A DNA stretch of 41,822 bases from Spirochaetaceae bacterium. GTDB taxonomy: Bacteria > Spirochaetota > Spirochaetia > DSM-27196 > SLAA01. The translations under genes and the position numbers were made by a program. The stretch spans positions 1-41,822 of the forward strand of contig PWQX01000013.1 of NCBI GenBank assembly GCA_003556605.1, given 5' to 3'. This document shows, piece after piece, positions 1,414-23,822 of this stretch; the first letter of the stretch is position 1; the number at the start of each line of letters is the position of its first letter. The notes below the pieces were generated by a model. The model was not told the origin of the DNA and did no database searches. It was given only the letters and a program-made list of their open reading frames with translations.

Positions 1414-1441
1414 TTGACAAATGAGAGTTTGTCCATTAAAA
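1414..1441 (+). promoter_or_regulatory. Sigma-70-type promoter of the iron operon
   Basis: A perfect -35 box TTGACA lies at 1414-1419 and a weak -10-like TTAAAA at 1436-1441, with a 16-nt spacer. An inverted repeat GACAAA/TTTGTC (1416-1421 and 1428-1433) sits inside the promoter. The region is AT-rich against GC-rich surroundings and points towards the gene starting at 1482. The -10 assignment is the weak part. Confidence 0.5.
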
Positions 1442-1442
1442 G

Positions 1443-1456
1443 TTAGGTAAGCCTAA
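1443..1456. promoter_or_regulatory. DtxR/IdeR-type iron box
   Basis: The sequence TTAGGTAAGCCTAA is a perfect 5-bp inverted repeat (TTAGG/CCTAA) around TAAG. Extended to 19 bp, it matches the classical DtxR/IdeR consensus at 15 of 19 positions by my count. It lies just downstream of the putative -10, where a bound metalloregulator would block transcription. Because feoA and feoB domains follow, iron-responsive repression is the natural reading. No regulator gene of this family is seen in the window. Confidence 0.7.
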
Positions 1457-1481
1457 ACAAGTGCGGGTAGCGTAATTTTAC

Positions 1482-1721
1482 ATGAATGAGAAACGCAGGT
1501 CGGCAAAACACGTGCCACAAATTGTACGCAGAGGGGCCGCCATGCTGCTCGCGGGTCTGTGGTTTCTCCACCATGGTCCGACAAGCCTGCGGGGCCGCGG
1601 CGCCACAGGGCAAGAAGGCTGTGCGATCGCGGGGCGCGCCGGTACGGCGCCGGCGAAACGCTGCAGCGGATGCCCGATAGCACCGAGGTGCAGCCGTCAC
1701 CGGGTTGTGAGATCGTTATGA
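1482..1721 (+). CDS. Small Cys-containing protein of unknown function heading the iron operon
   Basis: A 79-residue frame beginning 26 nt after the iron box. Its stop overlaps the next gene's start as ATGA, which suggests translational coupling and is the main reason to believe it is real. The N-terminus is basic, followed by one short hydrophobic stretch (about residues 19-29), a Gly-rich middle and a Cys-bearing C-terminus (C47, C61, C64, C70; motif CSGCPIAPRC). No Shine-Dalgarno sequence is clear before the ATG. I recognise no family. It could be a small membrane-anchored metal-binding protein, or a chance frame in a long leader. Confidence 0.45.
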   Translation: MNEKRRSAKHVPQIVRRGAAMLLAGLWFLHHGPTSLRGRGATGQEGCAIAGRAGTAPAKRCSGCPIAPRCSRHRVVRSL

Positions 1722-2293
1722 GGGTTATTTCTGTGTTCGTCGCTGCGCTCGAACGCCGATTGGCGGCTCAGCCGTGGTTTTTCCGCTTGTATGCCTACCC
1801 GTATCGCGCGTTGGTAGGGCGTGAGCTGCGGCTTGCCGGCGTGGGTGCTCGCGACACGGTCTTGAATATTGGCTGCGGGTCACTGCCGTTTACGGCGGTC
1901 CTGGTCGCAGAGCTCAGCGGTGCGCGTGTAATCGGTGTCGATTGCGACCGCGAAGCCGTCGTGAACGCTCGCGCGACGGTTGCGCGCCTGGGATTACGGC
2001 GGCGCATCCGGATTATCGAAGCCGATGCCGCCCGTGACCCTCTCCCGGCGGCTGATGTTGCTGTGGTATCCCTGCAGGCGGCACCGAAAACGGCGATACA
2101 CGCTAACTTGACGCGCGCTCTCGCGCGCCGCGGGGGCGGGCGCGCGGTATTTCGGTTACCGCGGCCGGCACTCGAGGCGGAGTACGAAACGCTGAGCGCG
2201 CCGGTAGCGGCGCACGGCGTGGTACGCCACCGCATGCCGACCTTCGACCGCTCCGAGCTTTACCTTGTGGCGTTCTTGAGGAGCGTTGCATGA
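1718..2293 (+). CDS. SAM-dependent enzyme, nicotianamine-synthase-like
   Basis: A 191-residue class I SAM-binding protein. Motif I reads NIGCGSLPFT (residues 50-59), the acidic residue at the end of strand 2 is in GVDCD (73-77), and VVSLQAAPK (117-124) and FRLPR (145-149) follow. The Gly-x-Gly-x-Leu-Pro-x-Thr form of motif I, and an Arg-containing strand after the helix, resemble nicotianamine synthase and the CntL-type enzymes. Those enzymes transfer the aminobutyrate arm of SAM rather than a methyl group. The start overlaps the preceding stop (ATGA) and the stop overlaps the next start. A plain methyltransferase remains possible. Fold is secure; reaction is inferred. Confidence 0.75.
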   Translation: MRVISVFVAALERRLAAQPWFFRLYAYPYRALVGRELRLAGVGARDTVLNIGCGSLPFTAVLVAELSGARVIGVDCDREAVVNARATVARLGLRRRIRIIEADAARDPLPAADVAVVSLQAAPKTAIHANLTRALARRGGGRAVFRLPRPALEAEYETLSAPVAAHGVVRHRMPTFDRSELYLVAFLRSVA

Positions 2294-4083
2294 GAGGCGC
2301 CGCGCGCGTGGTGGGCGCAGTTGTGCTCTTGGTGTTGGTCGTGCTGCTGCTGCCGCGCGGGACGCTCGGCGGGGCGGCAGACCGACTGTCGGCGCTGCCG
2401 TGGTACGGCGTGCCGGTGTTGCTCGCTCTGCAGAGTGCTTCGCTGGCGTTGCTCGGGCTGCAATGGACACAGCTGCTGCGCGCGAGTGCGCCGCACACCG
2501 AGATAACGTGGCGCGCGGTCATGACGCGGTATCTCGGCGGGAGTTTCGTGGAGTCGGCGACTCCGTCGGCGAAGGTTGGGGGAGAGGCGGCGCGCCTGCT
2601 GTTGTTCAGGCAGCGGTTTAGGATCGGCATGCCGCAGCTCGGAACCGCGGCTGCGGTTCACGCGTTGGCGATGCTTGCGGGTATCGCGGTGCTCGTTCCG
2701 GTTGCGGTGCTGCTAGGCGGCGGGGCGGCACTCGCAGCGCTGACCGGGCTGGGGCGTCCCGAGCTCACGATATGGCTGCTCGGCGCGGTCGCTGTGCTTG
2801 GCGCGGCGAGTTTAGTACTGCGCCGGGTGGCGCAGCGCCTGCGCGTGGTAGCTCCCGAACGCCGGACGGTTGCCGCTGTGGTGGGCATTGCTGCTGTAGT
2901 GTGGGTGTTGTACCCAACGAAGGTTGTGCTCGCGGCGCATCTTCTCGGCGTCACAGCGCCGGTGCCGGCCTTGGTTGTGGCCACCTTCGCCGCGTACGTG
3001 GTTGGCCTGGCGCCGCTTACGCCCGGCGGAGTTGGCGGCTACGAAGCCACGATGGTGGGCGCGCTGGTTGCGGCAGGTGTTTCGAGTGCCGATGCTGCTG
3101 CCCTGACAGTGCTGTCGCGGGCGGTGAGTTTTGGATGGCCGCTGCTGCTGTCGGGTTTCGCGGCCGCAGGTATTGCCGGCGCTCGCTCCGGCGAAGCTGA
3201 AGCGAGTAGCGGTCAAGGAGAAACGATGCCGCGCGAGCGTTTTTCGGCGATGCGGGCGGTGCAGGTATTGGAGCAGTTGGCGGGGGGAAGCCGCCTTTTT
3301 GCAGCCGTGTACGTACGCCTGTTTTATCGTGCCATGGTAGAACGCGAATACCGGACAGCAGGGCTCAAGCGGGGGGACCGCGTCCTCCAGTTGGGGGCGG
3401 GTCCGTTCCCCATGACGGCACTCGCCCTCGCCGAACTTGGCTGCCATGTAACCGCAGTCGATCGCGATAAGAATGCCTTGGCGTATGCGGAGCGCGCGCT
3501 GCAATCGCGGGAAGCTGCAGACCTTCCGGGAAGCGTGGTGTTGTACGAATCCGACGGGTTACAGTTGTCGTATAGCGGATACACGGCGGTGATGGTTGCG
3601 CTGCACGTAAGGCCGAAAGCGGCGGTCCTGCGGCGCATTCTCGAGACTGCCGACCCGGAAACTCGGGTGCTGTACCGCAATCCACGCGCGTTATTGCGGG
3701 GTGCGTATGAACGTATTACGCCGGGTCAGCTGGGGTTGTCACAAATCGGCAGAATAGCGAAGCTACCGGGGAGCAAGGAGCTGGTGATGGTGAGAAAACC
3801 TGCAAATCTTTCGGCACACGGCGAAATACCGTCGATGCCCTGTGCCGAGTGTGCCTTGTGTGATCTCGCTCCGCGACAACTGGGCACCATCGCCTACGCG
3901 CCGAATCTACCCGCTCTCGCTGCACTCGGGGTGCGCGCGGGCAAGACGTGCAGCCTCGTCGCGGCACAGCCGTGGGGCGGCCCGGTCATCTGCTCGGTAG
4001 GCGGCCGGCAAGTTGCTCTCGAGCGTTCAATCGCAGCACGTATAGGAGTAACGCCGGCCGGGACGGACAACGCCGAGGAATAG
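2290..4083 (+). CDS. Three-domain fusion: flippase-like membrane domain, nicotianamine-synthase-like domain, FeoA domain
   Basis: A 597-residue protein with three parts. Residues 1-295 are polytopic and carry the flippase-like (LPG synthase TM, UPF0104) signature PLTPGGVGGYE (242-252). Residues about 320-503 form a second SAM-binding domain with LQLGAGPFPMT (366-376), AVDRD (389-393) and RNPRALLRGAYE (463-474), again nicotianamine-synthase-like. Residues about 524-590 match FeoA, the small SH3-like partner of FeoB, preceded by the Cys cluster CAECALC (518-524). Translation starts at an ATG behind GAGGAG and overlaps the previous gene (ATGA). In-frame ATGs at 3226 and 3787 each follow AAGGAG, so shorter products or a recent gene fusion are possible. 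I know of no such architecture. Confidence 0.75.
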   Translation: MRGAARVVGAVVLLVLVVLLLPRGTLGGAADRLSALPWYGVPVLLALQSASLALLGLQWTQLLRASAPHTEITWRAVMTRYLGGSFVESATPSAKVGGEAARLLLFRQRFRIGMPQLGTAAAVHALAMLAGIAVLVPVAVLLGGGAALAALTGLGRPELTIWLLGAVAVLGAASLVLRRVAQRLRVVAPERRTVAAVVGIAAVVWVLYPTKVVLAAHLLGVTAPVPALVVATFAAYVVGLAPLTPGGVGGYEATMVGALVAAGVSSADAAALTVLSRAVSFGWPLLLSGFAAAGIAGARSGEAEASSGQGETMPRERFSAMRAVQVLEQLAGGSRLFAAVYVRLFYRAMVEREYRTAGLKRGDRVLQLGAGPFPMTALALAELGCHVTAVDRDKNALAYAERALQSREAADLPGSVVLYESDGLQLSYSGYTAVMVALHVRPKAAVLRRILETADPETRVLYRNPRALLRGAYERITPGQLGLSQIGRIAKLPGSKELVMVRKPANLSAHGEIPSMPCAECALCDLAPRQLGTIAYAPNLPALAALGVRAGKTCSLVAAQPWGGPVICSVGGRQVALERSIAARIGVTPAGTDNAEE

Positions 4084-4086
4084 TTG

Positions 4087-5925
4087 ATGCAGTGTCACAG
4101 TGCTGCGCCCGCGGCGAGGACCGGCAGTTCGGAGGTGTTGTTGATTGGGCCCCCGAACGTCGGCAAGAGCGTAGTTTTCAACCGCCTCACCGGTCTTAGA
4201 GTGTCGGTGGCCAACTACGCGGGTACCACCGTTGATATCGCGCGCGGATTCAGCCGATTCGCGGAGTTTCCGGTATCGTTGGTTGATCTTCCGGGTACCT
4301 ACACCCTATCGGCTACCAACGAAGCTGAACGCGTTGCTACCGAGATGCTCGACGGCCGCGCCGAGTTAGTGATTGTGGTCGCCGATGCACTTCATCTCGA
4401 AAGCAGCATCTATCTGGTGCTCCAGGTGCTGGCTGCCGGCAAGCCCACCGTTGTGGTGCTGAACCGCAGCGACGTAGCGGCCGCGAAGGGCAAACGGGTT
4501 GATAGCGCCGTGCTGTCGCGCCGCCTTGGAGTGCCGGTTGTCCCAACAGTTGCAATCCAGGGTCTGGGCTTTGATATGCTTGAACAGGTCGCGGCGCAGG
4601 CGCTTCGTGATCCCCGGGTACCGCCGGCTTGTACCAAGGAGTACTGGCGCTGTGCCGAGGATATTGCCCGGGAGGTGGAAGAGCCGCTGAGCGCCGCGGG
4701 AAACACCGGGCAGTGGTCTGCAGACCCGCCGGCATCTGCAGGGTATCCCGGTCTCGAGCTCGAGCGGGCGAGGAAACGGGGCAGCAGGCACGGCGTGCGA
4801 CGATCAGGAGTACTGACACGCTTTGACTCTGAGGCCTTAGTGCGCCCTTGGCCGGGCTCTGTTGTTGCGCTCGGGGTTCTCGCCTTGACCTTTGGGGTAA
4901 TCGTGGGTGCGGGAATGGGCCTGCGCCGGCTTCTGCTGCTACCGATTGCACGTGGCTATCTCTTTCCCCTGATAGAGGACATGGTTTCGCGAGTTATCGC
5001 GTCTGGAGCGGTGCGGAACATGTTGATCGGCGAGTACGGACTGCTGATCAAGGGTATCGAGTGGCCGTTCGCGCTCGTGCTCCCGTACGTCATATCGTTC
5101 TATCTGGCAATCAGCTTGCTCGAGGACTCGGGATATCTCCCGCGCTTCGCGGTCTTGTTAGACGGCTTGTTCGCTCGAATCGGCCTTCGTGGATCACACA
5201 GCATCTCGCTGATACTGGGCTACGGGTGTGCAATTCCCGGGATCCTCTCCACGCGCGCGATGGGCTCTCGCAAAGAACGCATAATCGTCGCGACACTGAT
5301 CTCGCTTGCGGTTCCGTGTATCTCGCAGACCGGCGCGCTGTTCGCGCTGCTGGCGGACGCTACGCCGTGGCTGGTGGTGGCGTTGTTCGCGCTTTCGTTT
5401 GCGGTGATGATTGCGGCCGGCGTTGTCATGGACCGACTGGTGCCGGGTGAGCGGTCGCAGTTGGTTTTTGAGATGCCGGAGCTGTTGATGCCGCAGGCGC
5501 GTGTTATAGCCCAGAAGGTGCTAGGGCGGCTGCGACACTATCTGGTCGACGGGGCTGCCCCGATGGTGGTAGCCGTTGGAGCGGCGGCCGTGCTGTACGA
5601 GACCGGCATCTTGGCGCGCCTGGGCGCGGCCTTATCCCCGCTGGTGACCGGCTGGCTCCGGCTTCCCGAGGCGGCCGCGGCGCCGCTGCTGCTGGGGGTC
5701 GTGCGACGAGAGCTCACGGTGCTGCCGTTACTCGATATGAGCCTCTCGCCGTTACAGCTGTTTGTGGGCGCCACGGTTGGGCTGTTTTACGTGCCGTGTA
5801 TCGCGGTGGTGGCGACACTGAGCCGAGAGTTCGGGGTGCGCGCAGGCTTCGCGTTGTTGTTGCTCACTACGTGCACCGCATTCCTGCTTGGCGGGATTTT
5901 TGCGCAGATTGGGGCCCTTCTGTGA
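4087..5925 (+). CDS. feoB: FeoB ferrous iron transporter
   Basis: An inner-membrane Fe(II) transporter with an N-terminal GTPase domain, 612 residues, shorter than many FeoBs (about 700-770). Visible G motifs are GPPNVGKS (G1, 21-28), DLPG (G3, 67-70) and NRSD (G4, 126-129). The membrane part has the first gate signature (LEDSGYLPRF, then GYGCAIPGILSTR, then a conserved Cys in VPCISQTG) and the second gate with VRRELTVLPLL and YVPCIAVVATL. The ATG at 4087 follows GAGGAA with 8-nt spacing and is preferred to the TTG at 4084. It directly follows the FeoA-containing fusion, so FeoA and FeoB functions are adjacent as in classical feoAB. Confidence 0.93.
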   Translation: MQCHSAAPAARTGSSEVLLIGPPNVGKSVVFNRLTGLRVSVANYAGTTVDIARGFSRFAEFPVSLVDLPGTYTLSATNEAERVATEMLDGRAELVIVVADALHLESSIYLVLQVLAAGKPTVVVLNRSDVAAAKGKRVDSAVLSRRLGVPVVPTVAIQGLGFDMLEQVAAQALRDPRVPPACTKEYWRCAEDIAREVEEPLSAAGNTGQWSADPPASAGYPGLELERARKRGSRHGVRRSGVLTRFDSEALVRPWPGSVVALGVLALTFGVIVGAGMGLRRLLLLPIARGYLFPLIEDMVSRVIASGAVRNMLIGEYGLLIKGIEWPFALVLPYVISFYLAISLLEDSGYLPRFAVLLDGLFARIGLRGSHSISLILGYGCAIPGILSTRAMGSRKERIIVATLISLAVPCISQTGALFALLADATPWLVVALFALSFAVMIAAGVVMDRLVPGERSQLVFEMPELLMPQARVIAQKVLGRLRHYLVDGAAPMVVAVGAAAVLYETGILARLGAALSPLVTGWLRLPEAAAAPLLLGVVRRELTVLPLLDMSLSPLQLFVGATVGLFYVPCIAVVATLSREFGVRAGFALLLLTTCTAFLLGGIFAQIGALL

Positions 5926-5979: not shown

Positions 5980-6942
5980 GTGCAGATTATCGCATCAGGC
6001 CTCGTACTCAGCTCTGGTGTTGTGCTCCTGGTTGCGGGGGCCTCAGCGTTAGTGGAAGGGGCCGCAGCGCTTGCACGACGCGTGCAGGTTTCGGAGCTCG
6101 TGATTGGAATGACGGTTGTGGCGTTCGGTACTTCAGCGCCCGAGCTCGCGGTGAACTTGTCGGCAGCTCTCAGCTCAAACACCGAGTTGGTACTCGGCAA
6201 CGTGGTAGGCAGCAATGTTTTCAATACTTTGGCGGTAATCGGTTGTGCGGCGGTAGTGCACCCGCTCGTAATCGGTATGCGTACGTCGCGCCTGGAGCTC
6301 CCGTTTTCAATCATCGTCGCGGTTATGCTGATCGTTCTGATACAGACCGGACTTCCGCCGCTCAGCGCCGCGTCAACGCTCACGCGCGTTGACGGACTGG
6401 TTTTCCTGGCGGCAGGCGTGGTGTTCAGTGTCTACATCGTGCGAACGATGTACCCGATACCGCAGATGGCGCCGGTCCCGGTGCGGGTGCACCGCTCGGC
6501 GGCTGCGCTGGTGTTGCTCGCCGGCGGAGTGGTATTGCTTATGGTTGGCGGCCGGCTGACGGTGGACGCGGCGGTGCGTATCGCCGTGTACGCCGGGGTG
6601 AGCACTCGGGTGATCGCCTTGACCGTGGTGGCAATCGGTACGTCGCTACCGGAGTTGGCGGCTTCTGTGGTCGCGGTAGGACGGGGAAACACCGATATGG
6701 CGGTCGGCAACGTGATCGGCTCAAACGTGATCAACATTGCGCTTGTACTCGGGATCTCGGTGGTCCTCGTTCCAATTGCGGATACCGGCAACCTGCAGGT
6801 AGAGCTCGTGACGCATCTGTGCGCTGTAGTGGCGGTGTTGCTGTTCGTCTATCTTGGACGCGGTAGAAGGATCGTGCGCTCAGAGGGGGTGGCATTGCTG
6901 GCGGGATATGGTGTGTATCTACTGCTGATCCTGCGTGGATAG
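5980..6942 (+). CDS. Na+/Ca2+ exchanger-like antiporter (CaCA family)
   Basis: A 320-residue membrane antiporter with two alpha repeats in inverted topology, each with the signature of the family: GTSAPE at residues 50-55 with GNVVGSNVFN after it, and GTSLPE at 220-225 with GNVIGSNVIN after it. About ten TM segments are seen, as in YrbG. It should exchange sodium or protons for calcium or another divalent cation. It starts at GTG 5980 behind an AGGGG sequence and lies 54 nt after feoB, so it may be co-transcribed with the iron genes. Confidence 0.9.
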   Translation: MQIIASGLVLSSGVVLLVAGASALVEGAAALARRVQVSELVIGMTVVAFGTSAPELAVNLSAALSSNTELVLGNVVGSNVFNTLAVIGCAAVVHPLVIGMRTSRLELPFSIIVAVMLIVLIQTGLPPLSAASTLTRVDGLVFLAAGVVFSVYIVRTMYPIPQMAPVPVRVHRSAAALVLLAGGVVLLMVGGRLTVDAAVRIAVYAGVSTRVIALTVVAIGTSLPELAASVVAVGRGNTDMAVGNVIGSNVINIALVLGISVVLVPIADTGNLQVELVTHLCAVVAVLLFVYLGRGRRIVRSEGVALLAGYGVYLLLILRG

Positions 6943-22145: not shown

Positions 22146-23822
22146 TTATCTCCTCGAGAGCCGTGGATTGGCGATTACCTCAAGAGCGCGCGAAATGAAG
22201 AACACCGACACAACGGTCAGCATAATCAGTACGCCGGGAGGGATGACCCACCACCACGCCGTGCGCCACGCCCCGGACAAACGCGCCTGGTGCAGAATGG
22301 TACCCCACGAGTACAGCCGTGGCGGGCCGAGCCCGAGGAAGCTCAGTGTTGCCTCGGCAGTGATCGCGAATGCCATCGCAACCGCCAACTGCAAAAACGC
22401 CAACGGCAGAACGTTCGGGGCGATGTGCTTGTAGATGATGCGGAGTGGGGAAGCGCCGGCTATTCGAGCCGCTTTCACAAAGGGGCGGTCGGCGAGCGAT
22501 AAGACTTGCGAGCGGATGATCCGTGCAGTCGTGCGCCAGGTGAGCAGCCCAACCGCCAAGATGATGATGTGAATGCCGGGTCTCCCCAGCAGCACCAGAA
22601 CCATCGCAAAGGGCTCGAGCGGTAGCGCGTACATGATGTCCACGATACGCATCAGCACGTTGTCAGTGCGCCCGCGCACATAGCCGGAGAACAGGCCGAC
22701 GTTGGTTCCGATCACGGTGACCATCAGCGCGGCGACAAAGCCCACCACCAATGCAGTACGGCTTCCATGGATGACCTGACTGTAGATGTCGCGACCGTTG
22801 TGCGTTGTGCCGAAGTAGTGCTCCGGGGACGGATGTGCGAGGGAGTTGATGTACGGGTCGGTCCCGACAGCCACGGCAGTGTCGCCGTCGCTCGTAACTC
22901 CGCGAAAGTGGCGGCTATAACCGGTTGCAACTTGCTGCCAGGTGCCGCCCGAACGCCGCATCATATCACCATGCGTTCCGACCACCAGCGCTTCCTCGGC
23001 GCTTGACATCGCGACCGATCGCAGGGTACGGGAAAGCGGTCCCCGCTCTTCAACCCATTCGCCTTCACGGTAACGCAGTACCGTACCGCGCTCGCCGACT
23101 GCGTAACCGGCACTTCTATCGAACAGCGCGATATTGATAAGGTCGCGAAACGTCGGTGAAACAACCTCTGCAAGCTGTTGGCCGTCGAACCGCAGGAGCG
23201 TCCCCCGTGCGCCGACGATGTAGCCGTAATCAGACGAGAGCAACGCTACCGCGTGCAGATCACGTGCGACCGGCACCTCAAGCGTGCGCCACTCATCGCC
23301 GTCGAGGTGCAGCACCGTGCCGCTCTCGCCCACCGCCAGCGCGGTTCCGTCCTCAGTGAGCGATACGCCGAACAAATCGGCTTCGGTCGGGGCCGGAACC
23401 TGCTCGAACACCCCGTCGATGTACCATAGGACGGTCCCATTGTGACCGACGGCTATTGAGCGCGCGGCGGCGGCCGAAATCGCCCGAAGCGTCTCGGTGG
23501 TGGGTGTCGCGACGGGGCTCCACTCACCATCTGCATAGCGCATGACGTGTCCGCCGGCGCCGGCGGCGACATAGCTGTCAGGCCCGTCGGCCGACACCGA
23601 GAACAGGGTGTCGGCGGCGATACCCTCCTGGATTTGCACCTGTTCGCCGCGGACCCAAAGTGCGGTTCCTTCCACGCGCTCGGTCATGGCGTACGGATCG
23701 TGGGTGGCAAGCACAGGTGCGAACAACGCTACAAGGACCAGGATAGTCACCACCAGCACGCCGAAGGTCGCCAGACGGTCCTGCTTGATGGCACGCCACA
23801 GGAGGTGTAGGGTCTCTTGCAT
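22146..23822 (-). CDS. DppC-like ABC permease with an inserted beta-propeller domain
   Basis: A 558-residue permease; ordinary DppC/OppC proteins have about 300. TM1 is at residues 17-38. The conserved permease part resumes at EHYFGTTHNGRDIYSQVIHG (about 334-353) and contains the EAA-type loop (AARIAGASPLRIIYKHIAPN). Between them, residues about 51-322 hold six complete repeats of about 40 residues. Each carries an AVG-x-x-GTVL-like core and ends near a G-x-W/F-x-x-V element. A half-blade at 52-66 and another at 305-322 could close a seventh blade. The repeats resemble YCF48/BNR-like propellers. The loop after TM1 is extracytoplasmic in this family, so the propeller should face the periplasm. 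Confidence 0.9.
   Translation of the reverse strand: MQETLHLLWRAIKQDRLATFGVLVVTILVLVALFAPVLATHDPYAMTERVEGTALWVRGEQVQIQEGIAADTLFSVSADGPDSYVAAGAGGHVMRYADGEWSPVATPTTETLRAISAAAARSIAVGHNGTVLWYIDGVFEQVPAPTEADLFGVSLTEDGTALAVGESGTVLHLDGDEWRTLEVPVARDLHAVALLSSDYGYIVGARGTLLRFDGQQLAEVVSPTFRDLINIALFDRSAGYAVGERGTVLRYREGEWVEERGPLSRTLRSVAMSSAEEALVVGTHGDMMRRSGGTWQQVATGYSRHFRGVTSDGDTAVAVGTDPYINSLAHPSPEHYFGTTHNGRDIYSQVIHGSRTALVVGFVAALMVTVIGTNVGLFSGYVRGRTDNVLMRIVDIMYALPLEPFAMVLVLLGRPGIHIIILAVGLLTWRTTARIIRSQVLSLADRPFVKAARIAGASPLRIIYKHIAPNVLPLAFLQLAVAMAFAITAEATLSFLGLGPPRLYSWGTILHQARLSGAWRTAWWWVIPPGVLIMLTVVSVFFISRALEVIANPRLSRR

Follow-up and report, generated by a model that had tools for sequence, protein, structure and literature searches.

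The window is the whole stretch of DNA analysed here, 41,822 nt from a Spirochaetaceae bacterium (assembly GCA_003556605.1, contig PWQX01000013.1, positions 1 to 41,822, forward strand). An initial annotation had proposed an iron box followed by genes for a small Cys protein, a SAM enzyme, a flippase-SAM-FeoA fusion and FeoB, and all of these were located, at 1443-5925:

1443-1458, + strand: DtxR/IdeR-type iron box TTAGGTAAGCCTAAAC (motif scan, chance expectation 0.02 in the window)
1482-1721, + strand: ORF for a small Cys protein with HHGP and CxxCPxxxRC motifs
1718-2293, + strand: SAM1, a minimal NAS/CntL-like enzyme of 191 aa (profile and fold matches)
2290-4083, + strand: fusion of a flippase-like membrane domain, SAM2 and FeoA, 597 aa
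2308-3156, + strand: LPG_synthase_TM (MprF/UPF0104 flippase-like) domain of the fusion, residues 7-289 (2.5e-26)
3187-3810, + strand: SAM2, the NAS-like domain of the fusion
3841-3861, + strand: CxxCxLC motif ahead of FeoA, seen in Spirochaete copies
3868-4053, + strand: FeoA (SH3-like) domain of the fusion (6.8e-11 for the isolated domain)
4087-5925, + strand: FeoB (FeoB_N 1.2e-45)

The ATGA overlaps reported for the first junctions are present at 1718-1721 (Cys ORF and SAM1) and 2290-2293 (SAM1 and fusion); FeoB is not overlapped, its ATG at 4087 lying 3 nt past the stop of the fusion. The flippase-SAM2-FeoA fusion is real, because the same fusion occurs in independent Spirochaete genomes, including that of the isolate Alkalispirochaeta alkalica. 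Its membrane domain exceeds the TIGR00374 cut-off (50.6 bits vs 43.2) but MprF itself is not matched (51.8 bits, cut-off 600), the membrane domain being present and the lysyl-PG synthase domain absent; a sequence search of the PDB for relatives of the flippase domain gave only spurious matches. Criteria for a Feo system are satisfied, with FeoA present and an FeoB bearing the G domain, Gate domains and FeoB_C. This FeoB, narrowly above the TIGR00437 cut-off (320.1 bits vs 315.65), is the only one of its genome. The small Cys protein was considered as a general component of the cassette and rejected, being confined to Spirochaete loci among those scanned.

The iron box recurs with the cassette: TTAGGN4CCTAA is enriched 56-fold in the 200 bp upstream of cassette genes (54 loci, not all independent; Fisher p 3e-12), and is observed in this position in both bacteria and archaea. 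The genome from which the window comes encodes three DtxR-family domains. A consensus scan found no sigma-70 promoter ahead of the operon, and there are no Rfam elements in the window.

Both SAM domains had been likened to nicotianamine synthase (NAS), and searches at the family level bear this out. The SAM1 family profile, run against the PDB, matched CntL (2e-16) and then the archaeal enzyme MtNAS (2.6e-15), with the next match at 9e-9; the SAM2 profile matched MtNAS (1.1e-20) and then CntL (8e-15), with the next at 4e-9. Foldseek ranked MtNAS at the top for the predicted structures of both. PF03059 is the commonest Pfam match of SAM2 (23 of 26 members, best 1.3e-17), and its cut-off of 27.1 bits is exceeded in 14 of 20 cassette-bearing genomes, at up to 62.7 bits. 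The window copies, taken singly, fall under the PF03059 cut-off (SAM1 12.8 bits, SAM2 13.8 bits) and under that of the CntL NCBIfam model (38.6 bits, cut-off 350). The initial annotation would have been refuted had both domains scored best as ordinary methyltransferases without similarity to NAS; profile and fold searches together support placing SAM1 and SAM2 nearer to NAS and CntL than to ordinary methyltransferases.

Residue conservation was examined across the two families. The GxGxxPxT form of motif I claimed earlier is there (GCGSLPFT, GAGPFPMT); the Arg-rich later strand is not, since that strand holds one invariant Arg (R146/R164). All copies keep the catalytic Tyr (54/54 for SAM1, 42/42 for SAM2), and a candidate catalytic Glu (E12/E29) lies 17-18 residues upstream of it in 54/54 and 41/42, respectively. 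E12, Y29, R146 and Y156 are invariant in all 54 SAM1 copies; Y29 aligns directly with MtNAS Tyr107, while E12/E29 are equated with MtNAS Glu81 by order and spacing, being aligned with a CntL Glu and not with MtNAS E81 itself. Missing from both enzymes is most of the N-terminal helical domain that caps the active site in NAS and CntL: SAM1 has only ~24 residues ahead of the aligned Tyr region, and the SAM1 and SAM2 alignments begin at MtNAS residue 90-101. This leaves room for a different substrate or for altered chemistry.

A single scan of public genomes yielded 54 SAM1 loci, spread over 12 or more phyla of bacteria and archaea. Linkage of the genes is directly observed: no SAM1 locus stands without another component close by, 27 have all five, and 24 have SAM2 and FeoA fused. 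The order of components is shuffled and the fusions vary. A gene order unique to this strain had been named beforehand as a refuting outcome; the gene set proved conserved across phyla and in both domains of life, and a strain-specific gene order was rejected. Some cassettes seemingly lack the flippase or SAM2, at least in the stretch seen, and in three genomes the set is split, the remaining part lying elsewhere in the same genome. No additional conserved neighbour gene is widespread (the biggest clusters reach 5/54 loci), and no plasmid copies were found. At least 47 of the 54 loci are in soda-lake MAGs, and several others are in alkaliphilic isolates. Alkalispirochaeta alkalica, Halanaerobium polyolivorans and Methanocalculus are cultured carriers, so the cassette can be tested now. 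In the SAM1 tree, neither the grouping of the archaea (AU p 0.115) nor that of the Spirochaetes (AU p 0.175) is rejected; the tree does not prove horizontal transfer, which rests instead on the patchy distribution.

Among known systems, the best fold match of both SAM domains is MtNAS, which makes thermonicotianamine (PDB 3FPE/3FPF) and shares with them a GxGPLPLT-type motif, the position of the catalytic Tyr, a PK motif and the late-strand Arg. The cassette enzymes differ in their length of ~190 aa, without most of the helical domain, and in occurring as two paralogues linked to Feo and a flippase. Opine-type metallophore systems (CntKLM: staphylopine, pseudopaline, yersinopine) include CntL, the first match of the SAM1 profile; the cassette, in contrast, has FeoB and no ABC importer or exporter recurring next to it. 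The opine dehydrogenase CntM (PF10100) was above cut-off in none of 21 cassette genomes, which rules out a staphylopine-type pathway, and an opine-type metallophore was rejected. The term Feo is absent from a published map of opine-like zincophores (PMC7438024). Both domains of Feo transport, FeoA and FeoB, are in the cassette, and the window operon adds two SAM enzymes and a flippase. Bacteroides fragilis has a FeoA-FeoB fusion (PMC8980893), whereas FeoA of the window is joined to a NAS-like enzyme.

We propose, with a probability of roughly 0.6, that the cassette is an Fe(II)-acquisition system of haloalkaliphilic prokaryotes, in which an aminocarboxypropyl chelator, soluble or lipid-linked, is made by an iron-regulated, membrane-coupled route and supplies FeoB in alkaline brine. 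Iron scarcity would release a DtxR-family repressor from the TTAGGTWAGCCTAA operator. SAM1 (CntL-like) and SAM2 (MtNAS-like) would act as minimal aminobutyryl (3-amino-3-carboxypropyl) transferases, using SAM to build an Fe(II) ligand on an unidentified acceptor, with release of methylthioadenosine. The flippase-like protein may then move this ligand, free or attached to a lipid, to the other side of the membrane, and the dedicated FeoA/FeoB would import the Fe(II) so gathered; the frequent SAM2-FeoA fusion would site synthesis at the inward opening of FeoB. Against the proposal, a secreted chelator would have neither a receptor nor an ABC importer. While the homology, the conserved catalytic residues, the gene linkage, the iron box and the habitat are observed, aminobutyryl transfer, the identity of ligand and substrate, the direction of transport and the acceptance of gathered iron by FeoB are all inferred, and sequence alone does not tell a soluble metallophore from a modified lipid as the product.

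A lipid-based scheme is possible but rather unlikely: SAM1 and SAM2 would put aminocarboxypropyl on a lipid headgroup, the flippase would expose the resulting iron-binding lipid, and iron captured at the surface would pass to FeoB. MprF, a lysyl-phosphatidylglycerol synthase/flippase, makes and flips lysyl-PG; its membrane domain, of the same LPG_synthase_TM family, is joined to a cytosolic transferase, as the window's membrane domain is fused straight to a SAM enzyme. The catalytic half of the fusion is, however, NAS-like rather than an aminoacyl-tRNA-dependent synthase, and is linked to iron. Loss of the NAS cap, judged from the predicted model and the 191-aa length, could admit a bulky acceptor. 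SAM-dependent aminocarboxypropyl transfer to a lipid is known from BtaA, which apparently is not homologous to NAS (PMC10491745), and PF11899 (DUF3419) is touched by only one of 26 SAM2 members, weakly (0.0057). The scheme must also accommodate bacteria and archaea, whose lipids differ, and cassettes with no flippase nearby.

Less probable still is that Fe(II) is buffered within the cell, as it enters, by a nicotianamine-like chelator made at the exit of FeoB, with some other role for the flippase-like protein. The FeoA fusion does bring SAM2 to the side of FeoB that faces the cytoplasm, no uptake receptor is seen, and in plants nicotianamine, a chelator of low molecular mass, is central to metal homeostasis within the organism (PMC10248798); yet 40 of the 54 loci hold a flippase-like protein, and the alkaline habitat is explained less directly. 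We give least credence to the SAM domains being ordinary methyltransferases acting on FeoB, FeoA or another target. The window's SAM1 and SAM2, taken singly, do score best against generic methyltransferase models in Pfam (for SAM1, Methyltransf_25 at 36.2 bits, cut-off 27), but MtNAS and CntL are clearly first in profile and fold searches, and there is little or no variation at the positions typical of NAS (P of GxGxxP, Tyr, late-strand Arg).

The initial annotation knew of no described system of this layout, and none joining nicotianamine-type chemistry to FeoA/FeoB was found in the literature searched, which for FeoA comprised titles and the openings of abstracts. Nor did that literature yield a paper pairing nicotianamine with soda lakes, or a description of iron uptake in pH 10 carbonate brines. 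Iron in such brines is bound up as sulfide and carbonate, and the gene set suggests an undescribed way to obtain it at pH 10. Only tentatively, at somewhat short of even odds, do we see here a new iron strategy common to soda-lake bacteria and archaea, in which the aminocarboxypropyl Fe(II) ligand made by a minimal NAS-like pair, possibly anchored to a lipid, is flipped outward to the cell surface and supplies a dedicated FeoB. Nicotianamine is the metal chelator behind iron uptake of grasses, and the cassette, if so read, would be a prokaryotic parallel to their strategy on alkaline soils. Nicotianamine-type chemistry would then reach as far as Fe(II) import by FeoB, FeoA fusions and the flippase-like protein would gain a role, and a metal-binding metabolite or lipid not yet known would be indicated. 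That the cassette is spread over so many phyla, bacterial and archaeal, and sits almost always in soda-lake genomes suggests a habitat-defining trait.

The cassette has five parts, namely a minimal SAM enzyme (SAM1), a flippase-like protein, a second such enzyme (SAM2), FeoA and FeoB, and in the window the middle three are fused.

1443-1458, + strand: iron box
1482-1721, + strand: small Cys ORF
1718-2293, + strand: SAM1
2290-4083, + strand: fusion protein (flippase, SAM2, FeoA; 597 aa)
4087-5925, + strand: FeoB

ATGA overlaps link the first three genes (small Cys ORF, SAM1 and fusion), and the Pfam/NCBIfam matches in the operon are as expected: LPG_synthase_TM, FeoA, FeoB_N, Gate and FeoB_C. 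This FeoB is the sole one found in its genome (estimated 99.4% complete), which has three DtxR-family domains; the window belongs to a Spirochaetaceae metagenome assembly, whose closest named relatives are Spirochaetaceae MAGs (metagenome-derived). Immediately after feoB lies a Na+/Ca2+ exchanger gene (5980-6942, + strand; PF01699, 8.7e-56), which also adjoins feoB in a relative (locus L024 of our scan of public genomes). Divergent from the operon is an MFS transporter (27-1370, - strand), its position kept in three related genomes (L040, L041, L043). A 558-aa peptide ABC permease (22146-23822, - strand) has an apparent propeller-like repeat insertion near its N-terminus, with repeated units of the VGxxGTVLxxxxGxW type.

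Taken alone, the window's SAM1 scores best in Pfam with generic methyltransferase models (Methyltransf_25, 36.2 bits) and in NCBIfam with CntL, the staphylopine synthase (38.6 bits, far under the cut-off of 350). Unlike these single-sequence scores, family alignments give an unambiguous result, and the kinship of both SAM domains to nicotianamine synthase (NAS), suggested in the initial annotation, and to CntL is clear as far as sequence comparison can tell. The Spirochaete SAM1 alignment matches the archaeal NAS, MtNAS, at 3.4e-15 and CntL at 5.7e-12 (best other 6.3e-9), and the SAM2-FeoA family alignment does so at 2.6e-15 and 6.2e-9 (best other methyltransferase 1e-5). Broader alignments gave CntL 2e-16, MtNAS 2.6e-15 and next 9e-9 for SAM1, and MtNAS 1.1e-20, CntL 8e-15 and next 4e-9 for SAM2. 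The NAS family PF03059 matches 23/26 SAM2 and 22/30 SAM1 sequences at E<=0.01; in 14 of the 20 cassette genomes compared, its score exceeds the curated threshold. When AlphaFold models were compared with PDB structures, MtNAS was top for both SAM1 (pLDDT 90.8; 1.6e-11, next fold 8e-10) and SAM2-FeoA (pLDDT 80.5; 1.2e-11, next 7e-9).

In MtNAS, Glu81 and Tyr107 deprotonate the acceptor amine (PMC10491745), and their counterparts in Arabidopsis NAS1, E77 and Y106, are essential (PMC10248798). Tyr107 aligns with SAM1 Y29 and SAM2 Y47, a Tyr that is invariant (54/54 SAM1, 42/42 SAM2). A Glu lying 17-18 residues upstream (SAM1 E12, SAM2 E29) is conserved in 54/54 SAM1 and 41/42 SAM2 copies, and the SAM2-FeoA family alignment pairs it with a Glu of CntL; the equivalence of this upstream Glu to Glu81 is only inferred, because the MtNAS alignments stop short of Glu81. 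A true difference from NAS is that most of its N-terminal helical domain is missing from both SAM1 and SAM2, which may mean that the acceptor is bulkier or that a partner provides the cap.

In a set of 61 genomes, made up of 60 relatives plus the one the window comes from, 17 have strong SAM1 matches (E at or below 2e-34), and in their neighbourhoods SAM1 adjoins flippase, SAM2-FeoA or FeoB. One scan of named genomes yielded 54 loci, in bacteria (Spirochaetota, Bacillota, Mycoplasmatota, Chloroflexota, Thermodesulfobacteriota, Pseudomonadota, Actinomycetota, Lentisphaerota, Cloacimonadota, Caldisericota, Bipolaricaulota) and archaea (Thermoplasmatota, Methanobacteriota). Because the scan patterns were derived from Spirochaete sequences, the scan may have overlooked other branches; mis-binning may affect a few of the MAG loci, e.g. 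L093, which resembles Thermoplasmata. At least one partner of SAM1 is present in all 54 loci and all five parts in 27, contig ends interrupting many of the rest. SAM2 is fused to FeoA in 24/54 loci, while the flippase-SAM2 fusion is, among the 54, confined to Spirochaetes. Cassette genes lie on both strands in 12/54 loci, and in Desulfonatronospira and two Spirochaete genomes the set is divided between two contigs of the same genome. Vibrio and Marinospirillum MAGs (L090, L092) carry two SAM1-class enzymes instead of one SAM1 and one SAM2. The aligned cassette FeoBs, the window's included, have in common the Gate motifs GYGCxIP and VPCxxQxGA, which differ from the GFGCNVP/SCGARLP type. Methanocalculus chunghsingensis has a second FeoA-FeoB set, with a different FeoB type, immediately following the cassette (L068:12430-14666).

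The tree separates SAM1 from SAM2 as two paralogous groups, both containing bacteria and archaea; one Vibrio copy and the references fall outside, and many forks are weak. The distances of the five parts are correlated with one another (r 0.54-0.73). The distribution is patchy, with SAM1 in only 4 of 393 Spirochaetota genomes (even draw) and 2 of 14 of the Halanaerobium family, so lateral transfer of the cassette is likely; it is not proven, since neither archaeal nor Spirochaete monophyly was rejected in the SAM1 tree.

Exact TTAGGN4CCTAA boxes number 12 within 200 bp upstream of the cassette genes, against 3 elsewhere, a 56-fold enrichment (Fisher p 3e-12; 54 loci, not all independent). Carriers of the upstream box are Spirochaetes, Thermoplasmata and one Actinomycetota MAG, and in several archaea it sits at a shared divergent promoter. 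The exact box is found in only 11 loci, or 17 with up to one mismatch; loci without it may use other regulators.

Soda-lake sample names appear in the titles of 47 of the 54 loci (MAGs). We take PLM2, DLM2 and GEM2 to be the Canadian soda lakes of PMC6748926. B1Sed10, T1Sed, CSSed10, CSSed11 and T3Sed10 are Siberian soda-lake sediments of pH 10 (PMC6146748), and the CSSed16 and CSBr16 MAGs come from Cock Soda Lake, also pH 10, where sulfur is mostly sulfate or iron sulfide (PMC6704655). The remaining seven are Alkalispirochaeta alkalica, Halanaerobium polyolivorans, Herbivorax sp. ANBcel31, Methanocrinis natronophilus, Methanocalculus chunghsingensis, and MAGs HAP27 and MAG-1580, both of unassigned source. 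The first two are alkaliphiles, Herbivorax less surely so, and M. chunghsingensis is not known to be one. For M. natronophilus strain Mx, PMC10598746 gives a soda-lake origin. Against an upper base rate of 2.4% (871 + 1032 MAGs of two big projects, with 100 more allowed for, among 84,980 genomes), the soda-lake excess is enormous (about 1e-68), an order-of-magnitude statement only, given the relatedness of the loci and the approximate base rate.

Most safely, the cassette is read as coupling iron-regulated aminobutyryl-transferase chemistry to FeoB, with a flippase-like carrier, both chemistry and transport being inferred. Soluble, lipid-linked and intracellular versions are all possible; the confidences of the rivals overlap that of the best explanation, since this covers the soluble and the lipid version alike. 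No opine dehydrogenase passes the cut-off in 21 cassette genomes, which sets the cassette apart from staphylopine-type systems, which have one, and no description of such a system was found in the literature searched. The individual parts are of known kinds and their combination is new; the system would be categorically new if its product, or the membrane handling of that product, proves so.
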